Below, piece after piece: positions 7,526 to 29,942 of a stretch of 64,000 bases of DNA. The position numbers and the translations under genes are program-made. Origin of the DNA: Bdellovibrio sp. 22V (GTDB lineage Bacteria; Bdellovibrionota; Bdellovibrionia; Bdellovibrionales; Bdellovibrionaceae); the NCBI RefSeq assembly GCF_030169785.1, contig NZ_CP125854.1, positions 2,790,001 through 2,854,000 on the forward strand, in the 5' to 3' direction. Within the stretch, counting starts at the first letter, position 1. Each line of letters starts with the position of its first letter. The notes beneath the pieces were generated by a model that saw nothing but the letters and a program-made list of their open reading frames with translations, made no database searches and had not been told where the DNA came from.

Positions 7526-7674
7526 GACTTGGGAATACTCTGAATCCTTCTAAAGATCAAAGGTTAGTTGTCTCTTGTCAGCACGAGAACTCAAAAGCAG
7601 TGTGTTTTTTACGCGCTTGCATTGTGGACGGCAAGAACCGAGGCATAAATTCAAAGGCATTGGTGGAGGATGAC

Positions 7675-12582: not shown

Positions 12583-13401
12583 ATGTCGAAAGTTGTCGGG
12601 AGGCCTATTGTGTTATTAGGAAAGACATTTCTTACCGTTGCGATCTGTATTCATTGCGCTCCGTGGATTGCTCAAGCCGCGGTCAGCTCAGATGATATGA
12701 ATAAATCCAACAATCCGTTAGCTCCGATGGTAGGACTTAATCTGCATGACTATATAACGTCTTCTATTTTTGACACAGATGAAACTTCAAATAGTTTTAA
12801 TCTGCGGGGCGCCTTGCCGCACCTTTTGGGCGGACACCCACAGCTAGCAAGGCTGACGGTGCCTTATCAAACTGTGCCTGAGGCGGGCGGAGATCAAGTC
12901 AGCGGGTTGGGAGATATAAACCTCTTTGACATCTTTCTTATGAAAGCAGGAAATCTGGAATTAGGTGTCGGTCCTTACTTTATTTTTCCCAGTGCTTCAG
13001 AGGACGAAACGGGGGCAGGCAAATGGCAACTCGGGGCATCGGGAGTTGTGATTGCGCCGCAGACGTGGGGCATGGTGGGTGCGCTTTTGACCTACCAGCA
13101 CGACGTCGCGGGTGACGACGATCGACCTACGCAAAATATCGCAACTCTGCAGCCGCTAGTGATGCACAATCTGCCTCAGGCGTTTTACTTAAGATCGACA
13201 GGAATCTGGTATTTCAACTGGGAAACCGGCGACTATTATCTTCCGATTGGTTTAGGAGTCGGTAAAGTATGGAAACTGGAAAGTGGAATCACACTTAATC
13301 TTTTTGCAGAGCCGCAATGGACCGTGGCGCACGAAGGGGACGGAGTTCCTAACTATCAGACTTTTGTGGGTCTCAATTTTCAATTTCCGATAACAAGGTA
13401 A
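12583..13401 (+). CDS. Outer-membrane transporter-family barrel protein
   Basis: I choose ATG 12583 because a signal peptide (MSKVVGRPIVLLGKTFLTVA, then CIHCAPWIAQA) follows directly; a GTGGAG lies upstream at slightly long spacing. The 272-residue protein opens with SNNPLAPMVGLNLHDY and continues with regularly spaced beta strands, and it closes with FVGLNFQFPITR. This layout resembles the outer-membrane proteins annotated as transporter or, misleadingly, neuromedin U family, related to the Phenol_MetA_deg barrels (PF13557). These are thought to be channels for hydrophobic compounds. No substrate can be inferred. Confidence 0.65.
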   Translation: MSKVVGRPIVLLGKTFLTVAICIHCAPWIAQAAVSSDDMNKSNNPLAPMVGLNLHDYITSSIFDTDETSNSFNLRGALPHLLGGHPQLARLTVPYQTVPEAGGDQVSGLGDINLFDIFLMKAGNLELGVGPYFIFPSASEDETGAGKWQLGASGVVIAPQTWGMVGALLTYQHDVAGDDDRPTQNIATLQPLVMHNLPQAFYLRSTGIWYFNWETGDYYLPIGLGVGKVWKLESGITLNLFAEPQWTVAHEGDGVPNYQTFVGLNFQFPITR

Positions 13402-13482
13402 ATCCAGCTGCTGAAAGACATGCACGCCAGGACTCGACGTGGCTCTCTTCCCTTGAAAAAATGAAAAATGGGAGGAAACCAT

Positions 13483-13701
13483 ATGCGTATATCAACATTG
13501 CTTCTGATAGCAGCGGCAGCCGCCGGAGTTTATGCTCTGGCTTCAAAACAAACTCAAAAAGGGCCTTCATCGCGAAGACGGCCTGAAAGACGCACTCTCG
13601 AAAACGATCGTGTGGATGAGACGTCGGATGATTCATTTCCCGCCAGTGATCCGCCTTCATGGAGTACCGGGACGTCTTCGTCGCGAGGCTTACCGCACTA
13701 A
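13483..13701 (+). CDS. Small exported/membrane protein with SFPASDPPSW motif
   Basis: The start is ATG 13483, with GGGAGG 7 nt upstream. The 72-residue product has one hydrophobic helix (MRISTLLLIAAAAAGVYALA), then a basic Arg-rich stretch, then DRVDETSDDSFPASDPPSW. That last motif is a recurring signature of small uncharacterised bacterial proteins often found beside stress genes; its function is unknown. A strong hairpin terminator follows. The neighbouring KGG-motif gene is convergent with it. Confidence 0.75.
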   Translation: MRISTLLLIAAAAAGVYALASKQTQKGPSSRRRPERRTLENDRVDETSDDSFPASDPPSWSTGTSSSRGLPH

Positions 13702-13713
13702 CCCTCGGAAAAT

Positions 13714-13746
13714 AAAAAACGGAATCCCTCAGGATTCCGTTTTTAT
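13714..13746. terminator. Bidirectional Rho-independent terminator
   Basis: The hairpin ACGGAATCC-CTCA-GGATTCCGT is flanked by an A-run on the left and a T-run on the right. It can therefore end transcription both of the small SFPASDPPSW gene (+) and of the KGG gene (-). Confidence 0.9.
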
Positions 13747-13765
13747 TTTTTCTTTTTAGCAGATC

Positions 13766-14614
13766 TTAGTAACGAGAAGACTCGCGATAAGATTCTCTTT
13801 CATCATCGAAATCGCTGTCTTCATCAGAGTATTCGTTTTCATCGAAATCCTCGTCTTCGTCACGCTGCCAGTTGCCGCTAAGGCCGCGACGAGATCCCGC
13901 GCGCATTGTATCGTCGTCTTCGCCGGTTTCAAAATCTTCGTCATAGTTTTCGCTCCAATCACTGCGACCACGGCCTCCGCCACGGCTTGTGGAGCGCGAT
14001 TCTTCGGAAGCGTATCTTCCGCCGCCGCGTGAAGAAGAACGATCTTCGTCGTAATAGTCTTCGCTGCGACTGCCTCTGCCGCCACGGCCACGCTCCTCAA
14101 GGTACTCGTCGCTATAGTAGTCGCCACGTCCTTGGCCGCCGTGCGAAGCTCTGCCGCCCATGGATGAAATGCGACGATGTTCGTCTTCTGACATAGAAGC
14201 AAATCCGCGGCCGCCACCGCGAGAACTTGAACGAGATGATGAACGATCTTCATCGTAATCGCGAGAAGAGCCACGGCCTCCTTGCGTCGAATAGCCTCGA
14301 CCGCCACCACGAGAACTTGAACGCGATGAAGAACGATCTTCATCATAATCCTCGTAAGAAGATGATCCTCTTCCGCCGTGCGAAGCTCTGCCTCCCATAG
14401 CTGAAATACGACGATGTTCTTCTTCAGACATGCCGGCGAAACCACGGCCGCCGCCGGAAGATCTTGAGCCTCCTCTGGATGAAGAAGAAGCGGACATGCC
14501 GCCGCGTGAAGAGGATCTTGAACGAGAACCTGACGTACTAGAGCGGGATGATGAAGAACGACCTCTTCCACCGGAAGAGCTGCCTCTGCTGCTTGTAGAT
14601 GATCGAGTTGCCAT
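13766..14614 (-). CDS. RGG/RS low-complexity protein with two KGG-type stress motifs
   Basis: This 282-residue, highly charged protein is preceded by AGGAGGT at good spacing. It is mostly Ser/Arg/Gly repeats (SSSRSSSRGGGRG) with an acidic Asp/Glu-rich C-terminus (about 222-275). Two near-identical segments at 59-80 and 138-159, GFA(G/S)MSE(E/D)EHRRIS followed by MGGRASHG, match the KGG repeat (PF10685) of stress-induced proteins such as E. coli YciG. Those small proteins accumulate under general stress, but their mechanism is not settled. RGG boxes suggest RNA binding or condensate formation. Other frames across this region are also open because of the biased codons; this one is chosen on its ribosome site and motifs. 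Confidence 0.85.
   Translation of the reverse strand: MATRSSTSSRGSSSGGRGRSSSSRSSTSGSRSRSSSRGGMSASSSSRGGSRSSGGGRGFAGMSEEEHRRISAMGGRASHGGRGSSSYEDYDEDRSSSRSSSRGGGRGYSTQGGRGSSRDYDEDRSSSRSSSRGGGRGFASMSEDEHRRISSMGGRASHGGQGRGDYYSDEYLEERGRGGRGSRSEDYYDEDRSSSRGGGRYASEESRSTSRGGGRGRSDWSENYDEDFETGEDDDTMRAGSRRGLSGNWQRDEDEDFDENEYSDEDSDFDDERESYRESSRY
14138..14203 (-). repeat. KGG-motif repeat, copy 2
   Basis: This encodes residues 138-159 of the RGG/KGG protein. It is a close copy of the unit at 14375-14440, and the repeat period is about 237 bp (79 codons). Confidence 0.8.
14375..14440 (-). repeat. KGG-motif repeat, copy 1
   Basis: This encodes residues 59-80 of the RGG/KGG protein and pairs with the copy at 14138-14203. 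Confidence 0.8.
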
Positions 14615-14730: not shown

Positions 14731-15903
14731 TTAGGCCTGGGGTGTCACTTTTCTGCGGTGAAAGAAATAGGCGTAAGTATTTGTCAGAAAATAGGACACC
14801 AGCAAAAAGAAGAGTCCGCTAAAGAAAGCCTGCTTGATGCCAAAACTCTGCGTCAATTTTCCGACAGTCAGATGCATGACAATCAACATGAAAGAATCCA
14901 TCGCCGTCATATATGAGATAGCGCTATCGAGATCCTCCGGAAACTCTGAAGATATAAAGGAGATCGACAGAGGATAAAACGGTGCGATAGCCAATCCTGT
15001 TAATGGCAGAAAAAGAGGATGGACAAAAAGACCTAAAACGATCAGCACCGCTGTACTCAAAAGAGAAATTGAAAGTTGTTGCCGGGTCGGGAGTGAAAAC
15101 TTATAGGCCGCAAAGAACAACCGGCCTGCCAACATTCCAATAAAAAAATACGTGACGTAAAGACTTGCGGCCTCCAGAGAATAATTCATTTCCCGCCGCA
15201 TGTAGAGGGCAAGACGGGAGGAAATCAAAACCTCTGCAGCGACATTGAAACTCACCATGCTCGCCAAAAAAATTTGCGGCAAGGCATGACGGTGCGAAGT
15301 GGGGGCGGGCGGCGGCGGCGTTTCATTTCTGTCTTCGTTATCGAAAAGAGGATGCTTCGCGCGCAGAGAATAAGAAAAAAGAAACAACGGCCCCAAGCCA
15401 GCTAGAAGAAAAGTCCAACGCCAGTTCGGAGTCGCCAGCGCCACAGCCGCAGCGGCGAGCGGCGCCAGAAAACTTGCCAAACCGTACATTGCATGAAGTC
15501 CCGACAGAAACTGTTGTTTGCGTTCTGCTGACGCAGCTAAGGGCACAAGGATGTTCGGGACAAGAGCCAAAATTCCCTGACTGATGCCGCTGATAAAACT
15601 AAACGTTAAGAAGAAAGCAAAGTTCCGTGAAAAAGCCATACCGGCTAAGGCCAGAATGGCGATGATAGCGGCGACTTGCAGGACATTTTTTCGGTCAAAC
15701 TTGCGCAAAAAATGGCGTGCCAGATAACTGGCGGCAAAGCCCGATAAAGAACTCATTGCAAACATCCACGAGCCGACTGTGTCACTGACTTTGTAGTTCG
15801 CAAGAATCTCGGGGAAGAGAGGTCCCCGGATATTGTCCGTGAAGCCATAGACGAAAAGGCTCATATAAGAAAGAATGATATAAGGCCACGCTGTTGTTTT
15901 CAT
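14731..15903 (-). CDS. MFS transporter
   Basis: This 390-residue integral membrane protein has about 12 hydrophobic segments. The family-type loops are RHFLRKFDRKN between helices 2 and 3, and a Pro/His-rich central loop (ETPPPPAPTSHRH) between the two halves. The opening GFTDNIRGPLFPEIL resembles MFS carriers of the sugar-permease-like groups. It is the last gene of the glycan operon, with its ATG overlapping the galE stop (ATGA), so export or import of a sugar-derived product is likely. The substrate is unknown. Confidence 0.8.
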   Translation of the reverse strand: MKTTAWPYIILSYMSLFVYGFTDNIRGPLFPEILANYKVSDTVGSWMFAMSSLSGFAASYLARHFLRKFDRKNVLQVAAIIAILALAGMAFSRNFAFFLTFSFISGISQGILALVPNILVPLAASAERKQQFLSGLHAMYGLASFLAPLAAAAVALATPNWRWTFLLAGLGPLFLFSYSLRAKHPLFDNEDRNETPPPPAPTSHRHALPQIFLASMVSFNVAAEVLISSRLALYMRREMNYSLEAASLYVTYFFIGMLAGRLFFAAYKFSLPTRQQLSISLLSTAVLIVLGLFVHPLFLPLTGLAIAPFYPLSISFISSEFPEDLDSAISYMTAMDSFMLIVMHLTVGKLTQSFGIKQAFFSGLFFLLVSYFLTNTYAYFFHRRKVTPQA

Positions 15904-16931
15904 AGCGGAGGCAGTGGGCCCCGGTCTGGGGACGAGCCTTCTTCCGGTTTCCTGTATCCTTGCGGTGTGTTTTTATGCCAGTTCCAGGCATCGCGCACAA
16001 TATCTTCGATTTTGGGGAACTGTCTTTTCCAACCAAGTTCTTTCTGAATTTTTTTACTGCTGGCGACAAGAACGGCGGGATCTCCGGCACGTCGGGGCTC
16101 GCGAGCGATCTTAAATTTTTTCTGAGTGACGTTTTCGCAGGCTTTGATCACATCCAAAACAGAAAAGCCGTTTTCACTGCCGACGTTGTAGGTACGTCTT
16201 TGTCCCGGCTGCAGCGACTGCAAAGCTAAAGTGTGGGCGCGAACAAGATCCATGATATGCACGTAATCACGCACGCACGTTCCATCCGGGGTCGGATAGT
16301 CGTCGCCATAAACTTTGACTTCCGGTTCTAAAGAATGTGCGGCCTTTAAAATACGGGGAATAAGATGACTTTCGGGTTCGTGATCTTCACCCATCGTACC
16401 GTCGGGGTGCGCTCCGGCGACGTTGAAATAGCGAAGCACCACGTAACTTAAATCATGGGCTTTGGCGAAATCTTCCATCATCATTTCACTCATCATTTTG
16501 CTGCGGCCGTACGGATTGATGGCCGCTAAAGGATGCGTTTCATCCAATGGCGTTTTCAACGGTTCGCCGTACACTGCGGCCGTTGACGAGAAGATAAGTT
16601 TTTTTACGCCCGCATCGTGCATGGCGTGCAGCAGATTTAAAGTGTTGCCGAAATTATTCTGATAATACTTGCGCGGATTTTCGACGCTTTCACCGACTTC
16701 GATGTGTGCGGCGAAATGCAGAACCGCTTCCGTGCCTTGAGTTTTGAAAGTTCTTTTTAAAAGTTCGAAGTTCGCCGTACTTCCATGCAAAAAGATCGCG
16801 CGCTTATCAATCGCTTCGTGATGTCCTTGCGAAAGATTGTCTAAAACCAAAACCTCATGTCCTTGATCCAGAAGTTCGCGCACGGCGTGACTTCCAATGT
16901 AACCAGCTCCGCCTGTAACCAAGACTTTCAT
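15900..16931 (-). CDS. galE: UDP-glucose 4-epimerase GalE
   Basis: GalE interconverts UDP-glucose and UDP-galactose using bound NAD. The 343-residue protein begins MKVLVTGGAGYIGS with the Rossmann glycine motif (7-13), has the catalytic SST (115-117) and YGRSK (141-145), and contains DNLSQGH and the RYFNVAGA substrate segment. An AGGAGG 5 nt upstream fixes the start at 16931. It lies just downstream of glf in an operon, so it probably makes the UDP-galactose that the mutase consumes. Confidence 0.94.
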   Translation of the reverse strand: MKVLVTGGAGYIGSHAVRELLDQGHEVLVLDNLSQGHHEAIDKRAIFLHGSTANFELLKRTFKTQGTEAVLHFAAHIEVGESVENPRKYYQNNFGNTLNLLHAMHDAGVKKLIFSSTAAVYGEPLKTPLDETHPLAAINPYGRSKMMSEMMMEDFAKAHDLSYVVLRYFNVAGAHPDGTMGEDHEPESHLIPRILKAAHSLEPEVKVYGDDYPTPDGTCVRDYVHIMDLVRAHTLALQSLQPGQRRTYNVGSENGFSVLDVIKACENVTQKKFKIAREPRRAGDPAVLVASSKKIQKELGWKRQFPKIEDIVRDAWNWHKNTPQGYRKPEEGSSPDRGPLPPL

Positions 16932-16939
16932 AAAACCTC

Positions 16940-18091
16940 CTATATAGGACGTTGACTGAAGCGCGGCCACTCGGAGCTTTCTTTGTTCAGGCAGATTTCC
17001 GCCAAATCCAAAGATTCTCCGATCACCACGTGCATATCCAGATAGCGATAAGTTCCCAAGCGACCGATGAAGGTCACCTTGTCTTCGTGCTCAATAAGGC
17101 TGATATATTTTTCTAAGAGGGCGAGATCTTCTTTTAAGCGCAGGGGATAGTAAGGTGTGTCTTCAGGCCCAGCAAGGGCGCTGAATTCTTTAAAGCACAC
17201 GGTTTTTTCATGAGTCTCCCAAGGGGCAAAATGTTTGTGTTCAGTGATGCGCGTAAACGGCACGTGTTCTTCGCAATAATTGATGACGGGATTACCTTGA
17301 TAGTCTCCGTCTTGTTCGAAGCGTTCAAATTTTAAAGTGCGATAACGAAGCCGTCCCAGTTTAAAGCGGAAATATCCGTCGATAGGTCCGCTCCAAAAAA
17401 TGTGTTTATAAAGGCTTTTGTCTTCCGGTTCGAGGCGTTTGTTGAGCTTCACCGTAATAGCCGGGTGATCCAGAATTTTTTCGACAATGCGAGTGTAGCC
17501 CTCGATGGGAATTCCCTGGTACTTTTGATTGTAGTAGTTATCGTCGTAATTAAAGCGAATGGGCAGTCTTTTCAGAATAGAGGCGGGGAGTTCTTTGGGA
17601 TCCACGCCCCATTGTTTTTTTGTATATCCGTGAAAAAAGTTTTTATATAAATCCGGACCGAGAAATTTCAACGCTTGCTCTTCAAAATTTTGGGGATCGG
17701 AAATGGATTTGTCGGCAAGGCCTTCAATAAAAGCTTCTGCTTCTTTGGGCTTCAGCTGTTTTTTAAAAAACTGATTGATCGTCAGCAAATTGACGGGAAG
17801 AGAGTAAACGCCTTTTTCTGTAATCGCTTTGACGCGATTAACGAACGGTGCGAACTCGGACCATTGATTGACGTAATCCCAGACATCTTTGCGGCTGGTA
17901 TTAAAAATATGCGGGCCATAGTGATGTATCATAATACCTGTGCCCGTGTCGCGCGTGGTGTGACAGTTCCCAGCAATGTGCGGGCGTTCGTCGAAAAGAG
18001 TGACTTGATATCGTCCGCTTTCGGCAAGTTTTCTTGCTAAAACGGCGCCGGCAAAACCTGTTCCTGCAATTCCTATTGTATCCACACTCAT
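16940..18091 (-). CDS. glf: UDP-galactopyranose mutase
   Basis: Glf is a flavoenzyme that converts UDP-galactopyranose to UDP-galactofuranose, the donor for galactofuranose in surface glycans. This 383-residue protein has the FAD-binding GIAGTGFAGAV (7-17), the GNCH near 41-44, and HHYGPHIFNT (56-65), plus NFFHGYTKKQWG and IPIEGYTRI, all typical of bacterial Glf. It sits between galE and a glycosidase-RmlD fusion with 5-8 nt gaps. Galactofuranose use in this organism is inferred from this gene. Confidence 0.93.
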   Translation of the reverse strand: MSVDTIGIAGTGFAGAVLARKLAESGRYQVTLFDERPHIAGNCHTTRDTGTGIMIHHYGPHIFNTSRKDVWDYVNQWSEFAPFVNRVKAITEKGVYSLPVNLLTINQFFKKQLKPKEAEAFIEGLADKSISDPQNFEEQALKFLGPDLYKNFFHGYTKKQWGVDPKELPASILKRLPIRFNYDDNYYNQKYQGIPIEGYTRIVEKILDHPAITVKLNKRLEPEDKSLYKHIFWSGPIDGYFRFKLGRLRYRTLKFERFEQDGDYQGNPVINYCEEHVPFTRITEHKHFAPWETHEKTVCFKEFSALAGPEDTPYYPLRLKEDLALLEKYISLIEHEDKVTFIGRLGTYRYLDMHVVIGESLDLAEICLNKESSEWPRFSQRPI

Positions 18092-18096
18092 TCTCC

Positions 18097-20259
18097 TTAA
18101 ATCATGACTTCGATTTGATGAAAGTAATTTTCCAAAGCGTGATCCAAAGACGGCAAAACTTTGACGCGTTCACTGAGTAAAGCGCTGTTCAGAGGCCGAC
18201 GGGCGACGTGCTGAAATTCCGCGAAACTGCGCTTCACCAACAAACCTTGTTTGTGAGGCGCATGCCGGCGAACCGCCATTGTGGCAAAGTCGGACCAAGA
18301 CACCTGATCGCCGTTGGCGACGTGGATAATCCCATTTTCGCGATCTAAAAGAAAATCCAAGGCGGCGTTTGCAAGGTGTGGAACATAAGTTGGAGAGATC
18401 TTCAGATCGTGCGCCACATAGAATTTTTTATTCTGTGAGATCGAACGGAGACATTGAGTCACGAAATTGGCGTCGTCCCAGGGACCAAAGAAAGAACTGG
18501 TGCGAATGACCAGAGCTTTGTCATAGGCGGCGAGCACTTTTTTCTCAGCCTCCGCCTTTGAGCGTCCATAGACATTAAGCGGTGCTATGTCGTGACTTTC
18601 CAGATACGGCTCTTTGTTTTCCCCGTTAAAAACCAGATCTGAAGAGAAAGTCATAAATTGAATTCCTAAAAGGGCACACTCTTCAGCAAGAAACTGCGGA
18701 CCTTCAACATTTTGGCGGTAGCAGAGTTCCGCTTCGCTTTCAGCTTGGTCGACCTTGACGTAACCAGCGGCATTGATCACCGCCCACGGACGGAGTTCCT
18801 GCAAAACTTTGCGGATGTTGTGGCGATCAGTAATATCCAAATCTTTTCGTCCCAGAATATGAAAGGAAATATCGCGGGCGGCGCACGTGCGCGCAAAAGC
18901 CCGTGATAGAGTTCCTTGGCCTCCTGTGATTAAGAGCGGTCGTCCGGATTTTCGCAGGGGAGAGTGTAAAACATTTTCCGGCATCGCCATGATGATACGA
19001 CGATTGTTTTTCCACCAGCCTTCGGTTTCCAACACCGGATGTTCGAAGGCGCCTTTGGTTCCCAACCCCGTCGTCATTTCAGACAGCAAGGTCGGGCGGG
19101 GATTTCCATTGGCGGAACGCAAGTCAAAAATTCCCGTTTCATAAAAACGATTGTCTTGGGTGCACAGCATGTTCCAGTCAAAACTGCCCAGCAGACTCCA
19201 TGCCGTGACGGCCTGAATATCAACGCCTTCATTTTTGAGATCAACGGCGGCCTGCCAGACTTCGTGAAGCCAGCGCATTTGCGATTCGCGATAACCGCGA
19301 GCATGCACTTCCGTCACGGCAATAGGACGGTGATAACGGTTCCACACATCCTGCAAAACGTCTTTCACCGGCAGAGGTTGCGCCTGGCCCGTATCAATGG
19401 CACCGACGTCGACATAAGGTTCAAACTTGTTTCCGCCATGCAGAAACGAAGGATAAAGATCCACGCGATGATCCAGGAAGCGATTGCTTAAAAGATAATG
19501 ATTGATACCAAGAATATCCGGCGGGCACGCATTATCTTGCAGCCACTTTAATTCGTCCGGGTGAAGAGACTGGGTCAGATAGTCATACATAGGATGATGT
19601 GTATTCACAAGACCGCTTAAAAGATCGAAACTGAGCCAACGCCGTTCATTGTCGAAATCGCGCTGATACGCAAGTTTTTCCGTACTTTGTGTTCGCCCCA
19701 TGTCCTCTGTTTGAATCAATCGTGCGCGCGGATTGAGTCGGCGAATTTCCTGCATCGACAAAATCGTTGCTTTGCATTGATTAAAGAGCGCGCGAATAAA
19801 TGCGCCGTCATTCGCCTGGTGCGGATACCAGTGACCGTACAGGCAACTGAAACGCGCCGTTGTCAAAATCTCATTCACGGGAGTGAAATCTTCAATCCAT
19901 GGATATCTTTCGGCCACGTTGCGGGCGAAAAACGCCAACTTTTCGGGAAATTGCGGATCTAAAAGATTTGTGTGCATCGGCCCGCTGCCGTGATGAAGAA
20001 ATCCCGCAATGGGCGTGAGATTGAGTCTTTCCAGATGCGCAGCTCGTTCATCCGTCCACCTCCAATCCCAAATATGCGGAAGGGGTTGCACCATTTCCCA
20101 TAAAAAAGGATAACGAATGCGCTTCGCTCCCATTTGCGCAAAAAGCTGAAGATCCTCAATACGGGTAAGATGACCGTTCTTATAGAGTTGGTTGTGATAT
20201 TGATCTCTAACCCGATTGAGAGTGCATTCGACACCTATCCACAATTGAAGATCTGTCAC
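18097..20259 (-). CDS. Glycosidase-RmlD fusion (TIM-barrel hydrolase plus sugar-nucleotide reductase)
   Basis: This 720-residue protein joins two enzymes. Residues 1-400 form a clan-A TIM-barrel resembling glycoside hydrolase family 1, with the acid/base pair in FTPVNE (Glu130) and the nucleophile in IAVTEVHARG (Glu317). Residues 440-720 are an extended short-chain reductase of the RmlD type, with GGQGTL (446-451), INAAGY (495-500), SSDLVF (539-544) and the catalytic YGRSK (564-568). RmlD reduces dTDP-4-keto-rhamnose, but no RmlA, RmlB or RmlC lies nearby, so the true substrate may differ. No signal peptide is visible, so the hydrolase half would act in the cytosol. The stop region is 5 nt from glf and the ATG overlaps the glycosyltransferase stop. 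Confidence 0.85.
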   Translation of the reverse strand: MTDLQLWIGVECTLNRVRDQYHNQLYKNGHLTRIEDLQLFAQMGAKRIRYPFLWEMVQPLPHIWDWRWTDERAAHLERLNLTPIAGFLHHGSGPMHTNLLDPQFPEKLAFFARNVAERYPWIEDFTPVNEILTTARFSCLYGHWYPHQANDGAFIRALFNQCKATILSMQEIRRLNPRARLIQTEDMGRTQSTEKLAYQRDFDNERRWLSFDLLSGLVNTHHPMYDYLTQSLHPDELKWLQDNACPPDILGINHYLLSNRFLDHRVDLYPSFLHGGNKFEPYVDVGAIDTGQAQPLPVKDVLQDVWNRYHRPIAVTEVHARGYRESQMRWLHEVWQAAVDLKNEGVDIQAVTAWSLLGSFDWNMLCTQDNRFYETGIFDLRSANGNPRPTLLSEMTTGLGTKGAFEHPVLETEGWWKNNRRIIMAMPENVLHSPLRKSGRPLLITGGQGTLSRAFARTCAARDISFHILGRKDLDITDRHNIRKVLQELRPWAVINAAGYVKVDQAESEAELCYRQNVEGPQFLAEECALLGIQFMTFSSDLVFNGENKEPYLESHDIAPLNVYGRSKAEAEKKVLAAYDKALVIRTSSFFGPWDDANFVTQCLRSISQNKKFYVAHDLKISPTYVPHLANAALDFLLDRENGIIHVANGDQVSWSDFATMAVRRHAPHKQGLLVKRSFAEFQHVARRPLNSALLSERVKVLPSLDHALENYFHQIEVMI

Positions 20260-21416
20260 TCAAGAACTCCGTACATTTTTGAAAATTTCTGGTCGATCTT
20301 TTTTCTGTAAAGTTCGTATTCGAGTGCCGCCATTTTCCCCCAGGTTTCGTCCCAGGAAATATGTTGCAGAAACTCGTCATGGCGGGGCCAGTGCGTGCTT
20401 TTGTCAAAGGTCTGAAAAATATTTTCGGCGGCGGCAGTAAACGTGTCTGCATCATCGGCAATCGCAACCAATTTCTGAACGCCATAGGGATGAACGACGT
20501 CGCGAATTGACGTGGAAATGACAGGCAGTCCTGCCGCGAGGTATTCTGGCGTCTTTGTCGGGCTGATAAAGCGAGTCGCTTCATTTTTCGCAAACGGCAT
20601 CAAAGCACAATTCCAGTTGGCAAGGTACGCGGGTAGTTCCGCATACTTCTTCATTCCTAAGTAATGAATGTTTGGCCGCTGCGGTAAAGTGGCCGGATCG
20701 ATTTTCACGACCGGGCCGATCATGATGAATTGCCACTGGGGACGGCGCTCTGCCATTTTGGCAAGAAGATCAATATCCATACGCTCGTCGATCACTCCGA
20801 CAAAACCCAGGCGCGGGAAAGGAATATCTTTTTGATCGTCGGGATCAGGCTGTTGCGTTCGCGCCTGTGCAAAATGAGCGGCGTCAATAGCGCTTGGAAA
20901 AGGATGTATATTGTTGTGACGGTCTTTTTTGGCTTCATAAAGTGAATGACCGCCTGTAAAAACCAGATCCGCTTTTTGCAAAAGTTCCGATTCCTGGTGA
21001 ATCAAAGCTTGCGGCGCACCTTTGAATTTGGACAGCTCGTCCATACAGTCATAGATCGTGATTTCCGCATTGAGATGCGAAGAAAAATGCAAAGCCATTG
21101 GCGTGTAATACCAGGCACTGTAGTTTTCAATCATTTCGTCTTCAAGAAGACGGTCTAAGAGATTTTTTTGCGTCTGCATCTGCTGTTCATGCGTGAACGT
21201 TTCCGGCACACGCGCGGCTACAACGGTCACACCTTCTTGCGTTTGTCGCAGTTCTATTTTTGGATGTGTCACCTTGTCGAGATGGGGTTCTTCGATAAAG
21301 TACACCCGGCGGTGGGAAACAAAGCGGGACATAAGATGTTGCGGTCTTTGAAAGACGAAGTCCCAGCGAAGATGACAAAAAACGAGAAGATCCGAAGGCG
21401 CGCATGATACATTCAT
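20256..21416 (-). CDS. Glycosyltransferase, GT-B type
   Basis: The start is ATG 21416, with GGAGG 8 nt upstream. The 386-residue protein opens with LLVFCHLRWDFVFQRPQHLM, a motif of a GT family found next to UDP-galactopyranose mutases, and contains YDCMDELSKF. The C-terminal donor-binding region has FISPTKTPEYLAAGLPVIST, the typical GT-B E-x7-E type segment. It is the first gene of the five-gene glycan operon. It presumably transfers galactofuranose or another hexose; the acceptor is unknown. Confidence 0.85.
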   Translation of the reverse strand: MNVSCAPSDLLVFCHLRWDFVFQRPQHLMSRFVSHRRVYFIEEPHLDKVTHPKIELRQTQEGVTVVAARVPETFTHEQQMQTQKNLLDRLLEDEMIENYSAWYYTPMALHFSSHLNAEITIYDCMDELSKFKGAPQALIHQESELLQKADLVFTGGHSLYEAKKDRHNNIHPFPSAIDAAHFAQARTQQPDPDDQKDIPFPRLGFVGVIDERMDIDLLAKMAERRPQWQFIMIGPVVKIDPATLPQRPNIHYLGMKKYAELPAYLANWNCALMPFAKNEATRFISPTKTPEYLAAGLPVISTSIRDVVHPYGVQKLVAIADDADTFTAAAENIFQTFDKSTHWPRHDEFLQHISWDETWGKMAALEYELYRKKIDQKFSKMYGVLE

Positions 21417-21563
21417 TGTGTTATCCTCCACATTTTTTAAAATCTCTGACTTGTTTGGTGTAATAGAAAATATGAAGTGACCCTATTGGACTTGCAAAAG
21501 AATGTGCGGCCCGGTGCTTAAAAACATGCTGCCGAAAACAGGGTCCTGTTATGTGATAGAGAC

Positions 21564-23402
21564 ATGTTGTCAATATCCGAAACCAACTTCGAAAACTATC
21601 CGCGCAAAAATTTTCAAAGAAAACACTGGTTGAATCTGAACGGTCTGTGGTCGTTCTCTTATGATGATGATCAGATTTTCAGTCATCCTTCGCAAATTCA
21701 AGATTGGCCTCACAAGATTGTGGTGCCGTATGCACCGGAGTCGCCCGCAAGCGGTATCGGGGATACCGGATTTCATACGCGGTACTGGTACCAGCGGAAG
21801 TTTCAATTGAAACGCACCGAAAATAAAGTTCTTCTGCATTTCGGAGCCGCCGATTATCAAACGCATGTGTGGGTGAACTCGCAGTATCTGGGCTCTCACG
21901 AGGGAGGCTACACGCCTTTTCATTTCGAAATCTCCGATTTTCTTTCCGACAGCGGAGAACAAGTCGTTTCCGTTTTAGTCGAAGACGATCCGCTCGATCT
22001 GCAAAAACCGCGCGGCAAGCAAGATTGGCAAAAAGAACCGCATAGCATCTGGTACCATCGCACCTCGGGTATTTGGCAAACCGTATGGTGCGAAGAAGTG
22101 GCGCATGTTTATATAGAAAAACTTCGGTTGGTTCCTCTCATTGAGCGCTGGGAAATTGGCTGCGAAGCCTTTATCGGGGGACCCAACATCTCGGGATTGC
22201 AACTTAAAGTGCGAATGGAATGTGACGGAAAACTTTTGGTGCAGGACACCTACGAGGTTGTCCATCGCGAAGTCCATCGTCGCATAGCTTTGTCGGATCC
22301 CGGGATTGACGACTTCCGCAACGAAATGTTGTGGAGTCCGGAAAAACCGACGCTCATCCAAGTGCATCTTGAACTGTGGAAAGAAAACGAGTTGCTTGAT
22401 GAAGTAAAATCTTACACCGCTTTAAGAAGTGTGGGCTTTAATCGTGACCGTTTTTTGTTAAACGGACGCCCTTACTATCTAAGACTTGTCTTGGATCAGG
22501 GCTACTGGCCTGACACGTTTTTAACTCCGCCCAATTCGGCAGCTCTTAGAAAAGACGTGGAGCTGGTGAAAGCCGCCGGATTTAACGGCGTCAGAAAACA
22601 TCAAAAAATCGAAGACCCGAATTTTTATTATTGGGCGGATGTTTTAGGTCTGGTGGTTTGGGCCGAGATGCCGAGTGCCTATCGATTCACGCACGATTCG
22701 GTGGAACGTCTTCTCAAAGAATGGACCGAAGTCATTGACCGGGACATGAGTCATCCAAGCATTATACTGTGGGTGCCTTTCAACGAGTCGTGGGGAGTGC
22801 CGGATCTGGCGGAAAAAGAAAGCCATCAACATTGCGTGCAGGCCCTCTATCATTTAACAAAAACCTTGGACCCGACGCGCCCTTGTATCGGTAACGACGG
22901 TTGGGAAAGTACGGCGACGGATCTTTTGGGAATTCACGACTATGACGATCAACCCGAACGTTTGATAAAAAAATACGGCAGCCACGAAAATATCGCCGAT
23001 ATGCTGACGCGCTATCGACCCGGCGGCCGCGTGATTACCGTTGAAGGTTATCCTCATGGCGGGAAGCCCATCATGATCACGGAATTCGGCGGTATTGCCT
23101 ATGTCGACAAACCGGAAGGTACGACATGGGGTTACTCGGCCTCGGGGACTATTCAAGATCTGCGCAAACGTTATGAAAATCTGCTCGCGGCGATTTATCG
23201 TATCGAAACCTTCTGCGGCTTTTGTTATACGCAGTTCACTGATACGTTTCAGGAAGCTAACGGTCTTTTTCGTCCCGATAGAACGCCAAAATTTTCCGTC
23301 AACGCCATGGCAAGAGCCACGCGAGGCGGAGGTTACACAAGAGGTGAGTTGACATCCGTTCCACAGCCTCCACCTTTGCCCCCTCCAGAAAGTGAATTAT
23401 AA
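21564..23402 (+). CDS. Glycoside hydrolase family 2 protein
   Basis: This 612-residue enzyme has the GH2 plan: an N-terminal jelly-roll sugar-binding domain (NLNGLWSFSYDD, YWYQRKFQL, HEGGYTPF), an immunoglobulin-like domain, and a TIM barrel. The acid/base lies in WVPFNESWG (near 408) and the nucleophile in MITEFGG (near 507). The family includes beta-galactosidases, mannosidases and glucuronidases; at 612 residues it is of the short type. No signal peptide is present. It is divergent from the glycan operon across 147 bp and may trim or recycle its product. The exact sugar specificity cannot be read from the sequence. Confidence 0.85.
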   Translation: MLSISETNFENYPRKNFQRKHWLNLNGLWSFSYDDDQIFSHPSQIQDWPHKIVVPYAPESPASGIGDTGFHTRYWYQRKFQLKRTENKVLLHFGAADYQTHVWVNSQYLGSHEGGYTPFHFEISDFLSDSGEQVVSVLVEDDPLDLQKPRGKQDWQKEPHSIWYHRTSGIWQTVWCEEVAHVYIEKLRLVPLIERWEIGCEAFIGGPNISGLQLKVRMECDGKLLVQDTYEVVHREVHRRIALSDPGIDDFRNEMLWSPEKPTLIQVHLELWKENELLDEVKSYTALRSVGFNRDRFLLNGRPYYLRLVLDQGYWPDTFLTPPNSAALRKDVELVKAAGFNGVRKHQKIEDPNFYYWADVLGLVVWAEMPSAYRFTHDSVERLLKEWTEVIDRDMSHPSIILWVPFNESWGVPDLAEKESHQHCVQALYHLTKTLDPTRPCIGNDGWESTATDLLGIHDYDDQPERLIKKYGSHENIADMLTRYRPGGRVITVEGYPHGGKPIMITEFGGIAYVDKPEGTTWGYSASGTIQDLRKRYENLLAAIYRIETFCGFCYTQFTDTFQEANGLFRPDRTPKFSVNAMARATRGGGYTRGELTSVPQPPPLPPPESEL

Positions 23403-25264: not shown

Positions 25265-25914
25265 TGACGGCCTTTCACTTCGAAGATATCTCGATCTGCG
25301 ACGGCAAATATCCTCTGTCCCGGCTGCTGGCGAACCACATAGCCTCCTGTCAGGCTGCCAAAGGCCGGGATTGTTAACGCATTTTTCTCTAAAACAAAAC
25401 ACGGAAGTTTTAAACGCAGCGGACCTTCATGAAGCTGAACCAACGGGTGCGTGTGTCCCTGGATTTGAAAAATTTTAGAGCGTGGATTTTTGTGGCCATG
25501 GGTCATCAGAAACGGACCGATTTGTATTTCTTCTTCCACCATATGAAACGGAAGACCGCGCAGGATTTCATGCGCGCCGTATTCGTGGTTTCCCAAGAGC
25601 AAAGTCCAATGAACATGGCCGTGAACCGCGAAGAACTCGCGAAAATCGCGCACGATAATTTCGCTCAGACTGAATTTATTGTGAATCCAATCCCCCAGGA
25701 CGATGACTTTTTCAGCATGATAAGTTTGAATCAATTGACTGATGCGCAAAAGATCCTCCCGGTGCGTGCCTGATGGCAGGGGAACTCCGGCGGCTTGGTA
25801 ACTTTCCGCTTTTCCCAAATGCACGTCCGAAAGGCCCAATAAGTGCTGGGCCGGCCAGAAGAATGCTTTTTCAGGAAGAAGTTCAATGTCTTCGTTCGCG
25901 ACCGTGATCTTCAT
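25261..25914 (-). CDS. pdeM: Ligase-associated DNA damage response endonuclease PdeM
   Basis: PdeM is a calcineurin-type metallophosphoesterase of the ligase-associated repair operon. With the start at ATG 25914 the protein has 217 residues, close to the family norm; a longer in-frame reading lacks a domain match. The metal-binding motifs DVHLGK, GDWIHN, GNHE, THGH and GHTHP appear in order. The gene overlaps the helicase by 32 nt and is last in the four-gene operon. Confidence 0.9.
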
Positions 25915-28324
25915 TTTTCTTTTCCCAGGTTTTTTTAAGACGAGCGATCTTCGCCTCAAGACTTTCATTTGAAAGATTGCCAATCGCGATATTTTCAACC
26001 ACCAAAGGGAACGCGAGTGGTGAAGGCGTTTCCAAAGAAATCCATTTTACGTTGAGCGTGCGCAGGCGTTGCAAAGTTTTGCGCATACGTCCGCTTTCTA
26101 AAGAATTCGCCAGAACTTCTTCGAAGCTTTGTTTGATCAAAAGATTATGAGGTTCGTGTTTTTTGAAAACTTCATAAAGAAGGGACGAACTGATTTGCAT
26201 TTGCCGTCCGGTTTTAGGCGAACCGGGAAATCCCGTGAAGACGAGTCCCGCAATCTGGGCAATCTCCCGAAACTGTCTTTGACTGAGCTGTCCAATCTGC
26301 AAAGACTGACCGATTTCTTCAATAAGGTTGTCATCGGAAAAAAAGTCGTCATCGAAAAGACTTTCAAAGTCATAATCCGCAGGGCCCGTGATTTCAAATC
26401 CATAGTCGTTAACAGCAAACGAAAATGTCGTGGGCCTGCGACGCGCAAAACGATACCCCCACAGTTGCGCCAGACCCTCGTGCACCGAGCGTCCCTCGAA
26501 AGGATAGACAAAGATATGTTCCCCTTGTTTGGAACTCCATTTTTCCATCAGAAGAAGGTCCGCTCCCGGAAGAATCGAGAGCTCTTTCTGAGTTCCCAAA
26601 AGAGGAGACAAGAGCCGATCCAAACCAGGATGTTTTTCGGTAAGAACTTCGCGAAACGCCTGCCCCAAAGTTTCTGAGATCGGAAAACGCCCGCCATCCC
26701 AGGAGGGCACCACGTTCGTAGGCATTTTGCTGGCGCGGACATACGCCGTCATATCTTTGAGCAAAACAAATTCCAGCTTCTTCCCCGCAAACTGAAAGAC
26801 ATCACCTTTTTTAAGTTTAGAAATAAAATTTTCTTCGACAGAGCCAATACGGCTGCGATTGGTATAAGAGACCTGCACTGATTCCCGAGAGACAATAGTG
26901 CCAATACTCATACGATGCTGGTACGCCACCTTCGGAGAAGCGGGACGATACTTCCCTTCGTCTTCCTCATAGACAAGTTTATGAAATTGCGGATACGCCT
27001 GCAGAGTTTCACCTCCTTGGGTCAGAAACTGCCGGCACCATTTCAATTCTTCTTGAGTGATCTCAGAAAACGAATAAGTTTCTTTGAGTGCAAGCCACAG
27101 CTCATCCATGCGCAGTCCCGGGCCGCACGCTAACGTCATCATGTGCTGTAAAAGCACGTCGATCGGCTTACGCAAAGGCCGGCGCGGTTCGACGTGTTTT
27201 AGTTTTAGCGCTTTTTTAACGGCTTCAAGTTCGAGGATCTCCCAGGAATTCGTCGGCACAAAAAGCAGGCGGCTTTTTCCTCCAGGACGATGCGCAGAGC
27301 GGCCAGCTCTTTGAATCATGCGTGCGACCATTTTGGGGCTGCCAATTTGTACGACGCGTTCGACCGGTTGAAAGTCCACGCCCAGGTCCAGCGAGGACGT
27401 GCTCACCACCCATTTTAAAGCGCCGTTTTTAACGCCTTCTTCGACGGCTTCACGTTCTTCACGATCCAGCGAACTATGATGAAGCGCCATGACGGGTGCC
27501 ATGTGCGGAGCCATTTGCAACATCACTTCATACCAGCGCTCGGCCTGCGAGCGTGTGTTCGTAAAAATCAACGTGGAGACTTCGGGATCAAGTTCTTCGA
27601 TCAAGGCTTCTTTTAAAGCAAATCCCAAATGCCCAGCCCAAGGAAAGCGGTCGATCTTTTTGGGAAGCAGACAATCTAAAACCAGATTGCGATCCGAACT
27701 GCCAGAAATAATGCGCGCTTCTTGTCCTCGGCCGACGGCGACCTTCGCGGCTTCATCCAGATTTCCAACGGAAGCCGACAGAGCCCACGTTTGCAGATCG
27801 GGATTAAGGGAGCGTAAATAAGAAAGCGACAGTTCACATAGACTGCCGCGCTTACTTGCCATGAGTTCATGCCACTCATCCAGAATCACGACTTGCAGAT
27901 TTTTGAAAAACTCATCAGCCTCGGTTTGCGAAATTAAAACGGCCAAGGATTCCGGAGTTGTTAAGAGAAGGTCTCCGGGATTATTCAGTTGTTTTTTCTT
28001 GTGCGCCGCTGAGGTGTCTCCGGTACGGGTGTCTATTTTGAGCGGCCATTTTTCCTGCAAGATCGGTTCATGCAAAGCCGCCGAAAGGTCGCGCGTCAGG
28101 GCGCGCAGGGGAGTCAGATACAGAATCTTCAGTCCCTTCTGCGGCTTTGCTAAGATTTTCGCAAAAGGTCCCATAACGGCGGCATAGGTTTTTCCTGAGC
28201 CGGTCGGAATGTGCAAGAGACCCGATTCACCGTTCAAATACGCGCTCCAAGCCTCCTCTTGAAACGGAAAAGCTTTCCATCCCCGGTGGTGGAAGAATTT
28301 ATGAATGGGTTTAAGTTCCTTCAT
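25883..28324 (-). CDS. Ligase-associated DNA damage response DEXH-box helicase (Lhr type)
   Basis: This 813-residue superfamily 2 helicase resembles the Lhr core. It has Walker A TGSGKT (41-46), a DEWHE motif II, the SASVGN motif III, and RAGRSAHRPGGKSR as motif VI, followed by winged-helix and Lhr-core domains. This family is defined by its operon with an ATP-dependent DNA ligase, a beta-CASP exonuclease and PdeM. It probably unwinds or remodels DNA near breaks. It overlaps the ligase by 14 nt and pdeM by 32 nt, consistent with tight coupling. Confidence 0.92.
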   Translation of the reverse strand: MKELKPIHKFFHHRGWKAFPFQEEAWSAYLNGESGLLHIPTGSGKTYAAVMGPFAKILAKPQKGLKILYLTPLRALTRDLSAALHEPILQEKWPLKIDTRTGDTSAAHKKKQLNNPGDLLLTTPESLAVLISQTEADEFFKNLQVVILDEWHELMASKRGSLCELSLSYLRSLNPDLQTWALSASVGNLDEAAKVAVGRGQEARIISGSSDRNLVLDCLLPKKIDRFPWAGHLGFALKEALIEELDPEVSTLIFTNTRSQAERWYEVMLQMAPHMAPVMALHHSSLDREEREAVEEGVKNGALKWVVSTSSLDLGVDFQPVERVVQIGSPKMVARMIQRAGRSAHRPGGKSRLLFVPTNSWEILELEAVKKALKLKHVEPRRPLRKPIDVLLQHMMTLACGPGLRMDELWLALKETYSFSEITQEELKWCRQFLTQGGETLQAYPQFHKLVYEEDEGKYRPASPKVAYQHRMSIGTIVSRESVQVSYTNRSRIGSVEENFISKLKKGDVFQFAGKKLEFVLLKDMTAYVRASKMPTNVVPSWDGGRFPISETLGQAFREVLTEKHPGLDRLLSPLLGTQKELSILPGADLLLMEKWSSKQGEHIFVYPFEGRSVHEGLAQLWGYRFARRRPTTFSFAVNDYGFEITGPADYDFESLFDDDFFSDDNLIEEIGQSLQIGQLSQRQFREIAQIAGLVFTGFPGSPKTGRQMQISSSLLYEVFKKHEPHNLLIKQSFEEVLANSLESGRMRKTLQRLRTLNVKWISLETPSPLAFPLVVENIAIGNLSNESLEAKIARLKKTWEKKNEDHGRERRH

Positions 28325-29942
28325 TTTTCTTTACTCCCGCGAGAAGTTCCTTGGCGGTCTCAAGAGTGTCGGCGTCTTCCGGTTTTTTATCGCGACGCCA
28401 GCGTAAAATTCGCGGAAAGCGCACGGCGATACCCGATTTGTGACGGGTCGACGGACTGATGCCTTCGAAACCGATTTCAAAAACATGGGCGGGTTCGACG
28501 GCACGAACGGGGCCGAATTTTTCTTTGGTGTGCCGCCGGATCCACGCGTCGAGTTCGTCAATTTCGCTTTGATCCAAGCCGGAGTAAGCCTTGGCGAAGG
28601 GAATGAGCTCTTCCTCGTCGTTCCAAAGGGCGAAGGTATAATCCGTATAAAGATTGGATCGTCGTCCCGTGCCGGACTGCGCATACAAGAGCACGGCATC
28701 TAAAGTCAGCGGGTCGACTTTGTATTTCCACCAGTTGCCGGTTTTTCTTCCCACGGAATAAGTTCCTTCCCAGAGTTTGATCATCAAGCCTTCCGCATTT
28801 TTTTCACGGGCTTTTTTGCGCAACTCATCCAGTTCAGAAAGGGACGAGACCGTCACTAATGGAGAAAAACGAACGCGTTGATCATCGAGATTCTCAATCA
28901 CTTGCAATAAAAACTTTTTTCGTTCCCGCAAGGGTTCAGGACGGATGTCTTTGCCTTTAAACTCAAGGCAATCATAGGCAAAAAATCCCGCAGGTTTTTC
29001 TTCCAACAATGCCGCAGCCACTTTTTTTCGACCCAGTCTTTTTTGCAGATCCTGAAACGGGAAAATGGTTCCGTTTTTATAAATTAAAATTTCGCCGTCT
29101 ATGACTGTCCCTTCGGGAAGTCGCATGAAGATTTCGGCGAGGTCGGGAAAACTGTGCGTGATCTGTTCTTCACCGCGGGACCAAATCCATACTTTGTCTT
29201 CGCGACGAATGACTTGCGCGCGAATGCCGTCATACTTCCATTCAATACACCAGTTTTCGGGAGCAAAATCTTTTTCACTTCTTTCGTTCCATGGATGGGC
29301 CAAACAAAAAGGATAAGGCTGACTATAAGTGATTTCTGTCGCTTCCGTGGAAATCAGTTTTTGAAAAGTCTCTGCCCCCGCTTGAATATTGCCTGTCAGG
29401 CGATGCGCCACTTGGTCGGTAGAAATCTGATAGACTTCGGCGACGGCGCGGATAACCAGTTTCTCGCTGACGCCAACGCGAAAGGCCCCGGTGATAAGTT
29501 TGTTAAGAATAAAAACTTCCTGATAGGTGAGCTGGCGCCACCACTTTAAAAGTTTTTCCGCCTGAAGATTTTCGTTTTCAAGCTGAGCGAGCGCGGGAAT
29601 TTCTTTCTCCATCCACGTCGTCAAAGATTTGTCACTGCGACCGGAAGTTTCACGGCACAAATTCAGAGAGTGGGCCAGCAGGCTGAGCGTTTCTGCCGTG
29701 TCACCCACATGATCGTAGCTTTCGTCAAAAAGCCAAGCTGGGTATTGCGTGGAGTTGAGAAACATTTGCACAAGATTTCTTCCGGTCAGAATGCGTTTTG
29801 AAAGACGCCCGGTCAAAACCAAGATGGTCCACATGGAATCCTCTGGCTCTGCGTTTGCAAAATACTTTTTAAGCGCTTCGACTTTCTCGTTCGTCGATGT
29901 GGTCGAGTCTAAATCGTCGAAAAGTTTTGCGAATGCCTTCAT
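28311..29942 (-). CDS. ATP-dependent DNA ligase
   Basis: This 543-residue ligase has the adenylated lysine in WKYDGIR (Lys236), then the nucleotidyltransferase motifs (DGEILIYKNG, FFAYDCLEFKG, EGLMIKLWEG, WWKYK) and a C-terminal OB fold. An N-terminal helical region (1-200) contains LTGRLSKRILTGR and FILNKLITGAFRVG. It belongs to the PP_1105-type ATP-dependent ligases found with the exonuclease, helicase and PdeM. It is thought to seal nicks in DNA damage repair separately from the replicative NAD ligase, which is not in this window. The start overlaps the exonuclease stop (ATGA). Confidence 0.93.
   Translation of the reverse strand: MKAFAKLFDDLDSTTSTNEKVEALKKYFANAEPEDSMWTILVLTGRLSKRILTGRNLVQMFLNSTQYPAWLFDESYDHVGDTAETLSLLAHSLNLCRETSGRSDKSLTTWMEKEIPALAQLENENLQAEKLLKWWRQLTYQEVFILNKLITGAFRVGVSEKLVIRAVAEVYQISTDQVAHRLTGNIQAGAETFQKLISTEATEITYSQPYPFCLAHPWNERSEKDFAPENWCIEWKYDGIRAQVIRREDKVWIWSRGEEQITHSFPDLAEIFMRLPEGTVIDGEILIYKNGTIFPFQDLQKRLGRKKVAAALLEEKPAGFFAYDCLEFKGKDIRPEPLRERKKFLLQVIENLDDQRVRFSPLVTVSSLSELDELRKKAREKNAEGLMIKLWEGTYSVGRKTGNWWKYKVDPLTLDAVLLYAQSGTGRRSNLYTDYTFALWNDEEELIPFAKAYSGLDQSEIDELDAWIRRHTKEKFGPVRAVEPAHVFEIGFEGISPSTRHKSGIAVRFPRILRWRRDKKPEDADTLETAKELLAGVKKNEGT

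Follow-up and report, generated by a model that had tools for sequence, protein, structure and literature searches.

A GH1 glycosidase fused to an RmlD-like reductase in a gene cassette with a glycosyltransferase and UDP-galactopyranose mutase

The stretch analyzed here (the window) comprises 64,000 nucleotides of Bdellovibrio sp. 22V (contig NZ_CP125854.1, positions 2,790,001 to 2,854,000). It encodes a 720-residue protein in which a glycoside hydrolase family 1 (GH1) barrel is joined to an RmlD-like short-chain dehydrogenase/reductase (SDR), and in related loci this fusion usually lies beside a glycosyltransferase (GT4) and a UDP-galactopyranose mutase (UGM; Glf). Here, we propose that these genes form a cytosolic galactofuranoside cassette, in which an active GH1 glycosidase or transglycosidase would be the core and the SDR an accessory module distinct from RmlD; we regard this reading as evenly poised. 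The observations behind it are the two-domain architecture, the conservation of the GH1 active site and of the cassette, the two lineages of Glf, the repeated decay of the reductase, and a separate rmlBACD set in the same genome.

Cassette conservation and the two Glf lineages

The queries used to locate related loci (numbered with L) were either the whole fusion or the GH1 half alone, not GT4 or Glf. The neighbor comparison used 51 loci (50 and the window), and eight plasmid loci opened from 25 plasmid records brought the number to 59. Within 9.5 kb of the fusion, GT4 was found in 46 of the 59 loci, Glf in 43, both in 41, a GH2 glycosidase in 18, and GalE in 12. Because several of the loci have short flanks, those with flanks of 3 kb or more upstream and 5 kb or more downstream (n = 43) were counted separately, and 33 of them have both GT4 and Glf. 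Outside the window's phylum, the gene order is usually GT4–Glf–fusion, with GT4–Glf on the opposite strand in L013, L100, L101, and L105; in the window's clade, it is GT4–fusion–Glf–GalE with a divergent GH2 gene. GT4 and Glf form one chain in 12 of the 51 loci, and Pfam places the glycosyltransferase at residues 228–345 and GLF at 548–744 in that of L100. A glycosyltransferase, glf, and a GH1 gene also stand together in the annotated records of Deinococcus aetherius, Caballeronia, and Ensifer. In Gloeothece, an 808-codon glf gene adjoins the fusion, and galK, galT, and GH2 are near. The Azospirillum and Runella loci have a glycosyltransferase, with no Glf found, and neither GT4 nor Glf lies near the Deinococcus deserti and Novosphingobium copies.

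Three cassette Glf proteins (from the window, L016, and one Deinococcus cassette) were compared with the Klebsiella and Deinococcus UGMs (KpUGM and DrUGM), both reported in PMC3624792 as crystallized with UDP-galactopyranose (UDP-Galp). The window Glf scored 483.6 bits to KpUGM versus 276 to DrUGM, whereas the L016 Glf scored 642.2 bits to DrUGM versus 292.2 to KpUGM; the Deinococcus cassette Glf scored 735.9 bits to DrUGM. The score of the window Glf is above the TIGR00031 cut-off (305.3 versus 303.75), and the ten substrate contacts of KpUGM given in Table 3 of PMC3624792 (N84, F152, Y155, W160, R174, Y185, N270, R280, Y314, and Y349) are all identical in the alignment. Unlike those two UGMs, the cassette Glf proteins sit with GT4 and the GH1–SDR fusion and, in 12 of the 51 loci, share a chain with GT4.

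Pairwise identities were calculated for the 27 loci having GT4, GH1, and Glf, 10 of which are from the window's clade. Glf identity between this clade and the rest is 36.6% (31.6–41.3), whereas the two groups have internal values of 73.6% and 70.4%. The corresponding values are 54.4% between and 62.5% and 60.1% within for GT4, and 50.1% between and 60.0% and 59.6% within for GH1. The most economical interpretation is that the UGM was swapped for a different one, with GT4 and the fusion remaining partners. Since the Glf lineage differs while GT4 and GH1 co-vary, the supply of UDP-galactofuranose (UDP-Galf) appears to be what the cassette keeps.

The full fusion occurs in 6 of the 24 genomes of the window's genus, its own included, the other five copies being 56–60% identical. 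A search for related loci returned 21; L023, at 27% identity, and L024, which has only RmlD, were excluded from the orthologues. The plasmid records were found by tblastn and include Deinococcus, Caballeronia, Sphingobium, Ensifer, and Gloeothece; the match is annotated as "family 1 glycosylhydrolase" in 15 of the 25. Named phyla with an orthologue, besides the window's own, are Pseudomonadota, Acidobacteriota, Myxococcota, Bacteroidota, Cyanobacteriota, Gemmatimonadota, and Deinococcota. Among sampled genomes (centre genome included), the GH1 half was matched at E ≤ 1e-60 in 11/240 of the window's own phylum, 3/289 of the class of genome G059, 8/244 of the phylum of G069, 5/296 of the phylum of G071, 2/199 of the phylum of G060, and 8/196 of the order of G067. 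The fusion family is sparse but wide and also plasmid-borne; it is widespread and already present in public annotation, not an oddity of one genome. No paper on a GH1–RmlD-like fusion was found among the matches listed in open-access literature searches, which covered titles and the beginnings of abstracts.

The window operon and the two halves of the fusion

GT4, the fusion, Glf, GalE, and a major facilitator superfamily (MFS) transporter gene look like one operon in the window, because the GTG start of the fusion and the GT4 stop share a 4-base overlap, 5 bases separate the fusion from Glf (which begins behind AAGGAG), GalE is led by AGGAGG, and the MFS gene overlaps GalE. The features are as follows.

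20256–21431 (−): glycosyltransferase "GT4", first gene of the apparent operon, with distant TuaH similarity; its stop overlaps the fusion start
18097–20259 (−): GH1–RmlD-like fusion, 720 amino acids; GH1 barrel (~1–415), linker, and RmlD-like SDR (~440–720)
19015–20259 (−): GH1 half, residues 1–415; H89, N129, E130, Y255, E317, and W354 invariant in 46/46 orthologues
18097–18951 (−): RmlD-like SDR half, residues 437–720; triad S540, Y564, and K568 present, RmlD contacts altered
16940–18091 (−): Glf, UDP-galactopyranose mutase of the Klebsiella type; 10/10 listed KpUGM substrate contacts conserved
15900–16931 (−): GalE, UDP-glucose 4-epimerase; the ATG at 16931 behind AGGAGG is preferred as the start over the GTG at 16970
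14731–15903 (−): MFS transporter that overlaps the GalE end; unmatched in the remaining 50 of the 51 loci
21564–23402 (+): GH2 glycosidase, divergently oriented; recurrent neighbor (18/59 loci)

The operon genes have a G+C content of 0.45–0.50, close to that of the window (0.484), and composition is therefore uninformative on transfer. Promoter-like sites (4, with 7.8 expected) and terminator-like sites (10, with 8.9 expected) are near or below chance. We take the glycosyltransferase to belong to GT4 from the Pfam "group 1" family names. The window GH2 is 66–77% identical to its counterparts in eight loci of the same phylum, and GH2 is also near the cassettes of L005, L007, L086, L089, and L094; its best NCBIfam match is beta-glucuronidase (124.9 bits versus a cut-off of 544). 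One Streptomyces GH2 enzyme is described in PMC4560423 as a galactofuranosidase specific for galactofuranose (Galf). By analogy, this is consistent with Galf chemistry, yet it is no evidence for the window GH2.

The original prediction had placed both catalytic glutamates of a barrel hydrolase and a complete reductase site on one cytosolic chain next to Glf, and this is borne out: E130 lies in PVNEI and E317 in AVTEVHA, S540, Y564, and K568 are on the same 720-residue chain, and the N-terminus (MTDLQLWIGVEC) shows no hydrophobic leader (judged by eye, without a signal-peptide program). It had also noted that no dTDP-rhamnose genes are nearby, and none is among the 31 of the 62 listed window open reading frames (ORFs) that were scanned with Pfam. 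Pfam matches to the fusion are Glyco_hydro_1 at residues 99–363 (25.6 bits; cut-off, 22.6) and RmlD_sub_bind at residues 442–700 (203.5 bits; cut-off, 27). The AlphaFold2 model, built with 24 sequences, has a predicted local distance difference test score (pLDDT) of 91.7 and a predicted template modeling score of 0.90, with one loose linker at residues 425–434. An assembly or frameshift artefact joining two genes was ruled out because the chain recurs in five other genomes of the genus and in other phyla.

In the GH1 half, the model has a GH1-type (β/α)8 barrel. Residues 1–406 were superimposed on Thermotoga maritima GH1 (Protein Data Bank ID: 2cet) by VIA-align with a Z score of 36.3 and a root mean square deviation (rmsd) of 2.9 for 382 aligned residues at 15% identity. 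The sequence passes the GH1 profile PF00232 as a weak, divergent member and does not reach TIGR03356, the NCBIfam equivalog for GH1 beta-glucosidases (38 bits versus a cut-off of 478.5). Orthologues were compared in a 46-row alignment, which omits L010 (a near copy of L009), L017 (starting at a contig edge), L019 and L022 (broken frames), and L099 (another frame picked). The six active-site residues listed above are invariant in all 46; as is usual in GH1, one of E130 and E317 would be the acid/base and the other the nucleophile. The barrel thus shares its fold, the Asn-Glu and Thr-Glu glutamates, and the WSLL motif with GH1 glycosidases such as T. maritima BglA, and differs from them in its low identity, its fusion to an SDR, and one motif position. 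D361 aligns with the Glu of the GH1 motif WSLLDNFEW, and this position holds Asp in 34 orthologues, Gly in 9 others, and Asn in the remaining 3; because of this replacement, sugar recognition probably differs from that of common beta-glucosidases. With the catalytic residues kept, the barrel looks active, and a dead barrel was rejected on the residues alone.

Divergence and decay of the reductase

Residues 440–718 were superimposed on the RmlD orthologue 1vl0 by VIA-align with a Z score of 38.4 and an rmsd of 1.6 for 275 aligned residues. The Ser/Thr-Tyr-Lys triad of RmlD (PMC4832382) is present as S540, Y564, and K568. In spite of this likeness, the fused domain scored 203.9 bits to the NCBIfam RmlD equivalog TIGR01214, below its cut-off of 224.05. 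According to the review PMC9415975, Q11 and T65 of RmlD are cofactor contacts, and T65, Y106, and W153 are among the dTDP-rhamnose contacts. These positions were compared, with the numbering transferred by motif, between 36 near-full-length fused domains (33 intact and 3 motif-less) and 17 stand-alone RmlD-like proteins, which include L111 and L112 as the poorest matches (~29% to the RmlD of the window genome; maybe not RmlD). In the fused domains, Q11 is replaced with Thr in 33, T65 with Val in 33, Y106 with Leu in 31, and W153 with Ala or Ser in 34 (T, V, L, and S in the window), whereas the four residues are kept in 14–16 of the 17 stand-alone proteins. The Rossmann glycines and the catalytic Tyr and Lys are kept in at least 33 of the 36 fused domains.

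The window genome is a single contig of 3.60 Mb, in which the 720-residue query matched itself, one separate RmlD, and GalE, and none other at E ≤ 0.001. The separate RmlD sits in an rmlB-rmlA-rmlC-rmlD set ~360 kb from the fusion, and all four proteins exceed their TIGRFAM equivalog cut-offs (RmlD, 304.7 versus 224.05 bits; RmlC, 271.3 versus 155.75; RmlA, 506.6 versus 360.65; RmlB, 490 versus 365.1). Since the genome has its own rmlBACD, the equivalog score is below the cut-off, and the RmlD contacts are replaced, the fused reductase is unlikely to be a dTDP-rhamnose enzyme; the SDR has probably ceased to be one. The suggestion of the original prediction that the reductase may use a non-rhamnose substrate is thereby strengthened. 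As evidence to the contrary, it had named a complete rmlABC set lacking rmlD together with an inactive barrel; rmlD stands with rmlBAC, and the retained catalytic residues argue against inactivity of the barrel. Separate RmlD-like proteins (L106–L110, L113, and L114) are also found in seven other orthologue-bearing genomes, where the fused SDR is intact in four (those of L004, L006, L007, and L016) and short or absent in three (L012, L013, and L020). RmlD also occurs in a fusion protein in Prymnesium parvum, but there it is joined to the preceding pathway step, RmlC, as the title of PMC6556577 states, and not to a glycosidase.

The SDR motif is intact in 34 of the 46 orthologues, degenerate, truncated, or absent in 11, and unknown in 1. 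The unknown is L015, which ends at a contig edge and was treated as not lost in the tree, and L005, whose frame breaks after the motif, was counted as intact. Full-length domains without the motif are found in L008, L009, and L097, shortened ones in L011, L013, L020, L021, and L083, and the domain is absent from L012, L014, and L098. A 456-codon Ensifer copy, which matches query residues 4–426 only, is also without the SDR. On the GH1 tree, six rows of which (L083 and L097 among them) have an unusual amino-acid make-up, the SDR state changed at least 6 times, with 7 changes as the most parsimonious number, and one-change trees made up 0% of 200 bootstraps. The tree counts changes only; losses are favored over gains because motif-less and cut-down remnants exist. 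The predicted structure of L013 has a small α/β remnant at residues 441–530 (block pLDDT 60–83), and no RmlD match was found in it with Pfam. The idea of an obligate reaction of hydrolase plus reductase is weakened by these results, because GT4 and Glf are the usual companions and the reductase has decayed or been lost in 11 of the 46.

Proposed role and alternatives

Here is the route that we propose. GalE, encoded in the window operon, would supply UDP-Galp, and Glf would convert it to UDP-Galf. GT4 may then move Galf onto a cytosolic acceptor, with UDP-Galf as its presumed donor. The GH1 barrel, as a two-glutamate retaining enzyme, would trim or re-transfer the sugar on a Galf glycoside, acceptor, or precursor, the bond and the direction being conjectural. 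The RmlD-derived SDR may reduce a keto sugar of the route, or it may be an NAD(P)-binding structural or sensing accessory that was lost in several lineages; its ligand is likewise conjectural. If this is correct, several bacterial phyla carry the genes for a Galf-containing compound not yet described, and the cassette provides a natural candidate for a GH1 enzyme acting on galactofuranosides. The family would also offer living intermediates (intact, motif lost, trimmed, and absent) that show how an enzyme domain decays within a fusion protein, and it would call into question whether these are simply nutritional glycosidases, as the label "family 1 glycosylhydrolase" suggests.

Several points weigh against the galactofuranoside cassette. 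The loci cannot be treated as independent, since 11 of the 51 come from the window's own clade. Neither GT4 nor Glf is nearby in 11 of the 59 loci, including 7 of the 43 with ample flanks; the fusion can therefore stand alone or have distant partners. GT4 is present with no Glf nearby in L014, L096, L097, L118, and L122, and GalE is near in only 12 of the 59. The Pfam match of the window GT4 is modest (40.1 bits; cut-off, 27), and the galactofuranosyltransferases described in PMC12269835 are called GT2 and GT111. A very unequal rate of Glf evolution could in principle account for the 27-locus pairwise identities instead of an exchange of UGM. Loss of the reductase could be the loss of a real catalytic step that was dispensed with or served by another protein. 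Finally, the sparse spread (11/240, 3/289, and 8/244 sampled genomes) gives no phenotype link.

The first alternative concerns the SDR alone, as a noncatalytic scaffold or an NAD(P)-responsive regulatory module for GH1. In animals, the RmlD relative MAT2B serves as a regulatory subunit, and MAT2B was among the fold-search matches. The three motif-less full-length domains and the five cut-down ones fit such a role, as does the small α/β unit predicted to be retained in L013. A pure scaffold would have no need of the triad, which is nevertheless kept in 34 of the 46 orthologues over such distances, and the contacts are altered in one consistent manner, which suggests a retained SDR ligand. We consider this explanation unlikely, though one to be taken seriously.

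A bolder form of the galactofuranoside cassette would be a widespread and transferable cytosolic route to a soluble Galf glycoside. Its most compact form would consist of two bifunctional proteins, GT4–Glf and GH1–SDR; GH1 would act synthetically, as a transglycosidase, and the SDR would be an NAD(P)H-linked module midway between enzyme and scaffold. A stress-protective product would fit hosts such as Deinococcus, cyanobacteria, and Sphingomonas, along with the other environmental bacteria that carry the genes. This picture is speculative, and we think it quite unlikely to hold as a whole.

The reductase and the mutase could instead belong to a dTDP-fucofuranose route, for which we see a low probability. 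The SDR would make dTDP-D-fucose from the dTDP-4-keto-6-deoxyglucose of RmlA and RmlB, and the mutase would make dTDP-D-fucofuranose. A reductase paired with a Glf-like mutase has been described for this pathway in Escherichia coli O52 (Fcf1 and Fcf2; PMC10888714), RmlA and RmlB are encoded in the window genome, and the altered SDR contacts are compatible with a different 4-keto sugar. Compared with that pair as described, however, the cassette reductase is dispensable and fused to GH1: Glf persists in L008, L009, L011, L013, L021, and L083, whose fused reductase is not intact and where a separate reductase could substitute. In addition, the window operon has GalE and not RmlA or RmlB, and the closest solved structures to either Glf lineage are UGMs crystallized with UDP-Galp.

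A catabolic cassette, in which GH1 and GH2 would degrade a glycoside brought into the cell and the freed sugar would be handled by the reductase and GalE, is similarly improbable. It would account for GH2 in 18 of the 59 loci, galK and galT beside one cyanobacterial copy, a GH43-like neighbor family in four loci (checked with Pfam in L016), extra GH1 genes near L009, L021, and L103, and MFS transporters near the window, Azospirillum, and Gloeothece copies. The most constant partners, however, are a glycosyltransferase and a UGM, both synthetic; the window MFS protein is unmatched in the remaining 50 loci, and no secretion signal was seen by eye in the GH1 half.

An ordinary RmlD fused by chance, with the SDR making dTDP-L-rhamnose, is highly improbable in spite of the strong RmlD_sub_bind match, the RmlD fold, and the retained triad, given the canonical RmlD of the separate rmlBACD set (304.7 bits), the sub-cut-off equivalog score of the fused domain, the replacement of Q11, T65, Y106, and W153, and the repeated decay of the SDR; a canonical RmlD identity was rejected on the score, the contacts, and the separate set.

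Some neighboring genes were also recorded. The upstream GH43 glycosidase of L016 lies at 2928–3914 (Pfam) and has relatives in L087, L089, and L090, loci that also share a 269-residue protein. The additional GH1 genes in L009, L021, and L103 are within ~7 kb and 24–29% identical to the GH1 half of the fusion. In L075, a Gfo/Idh/MocA oxidoreductase (13228–14334; Pfam) directly follows GalE, with relatives in L076, L077, and L079 of the same genus. Elsewhere in the window, a 706-residue ORF at 7600–9720 (+) has no Pfam match at E 0.001, and a 282-residue ORF at 13766–14614 (−) has one KGG stress-repeat motif. At 25883–30931 (−), an Lhr-type helicase, an ATP-dependent DNA ligase, and a protein weakly matching RMMBL are encoded in tandem.

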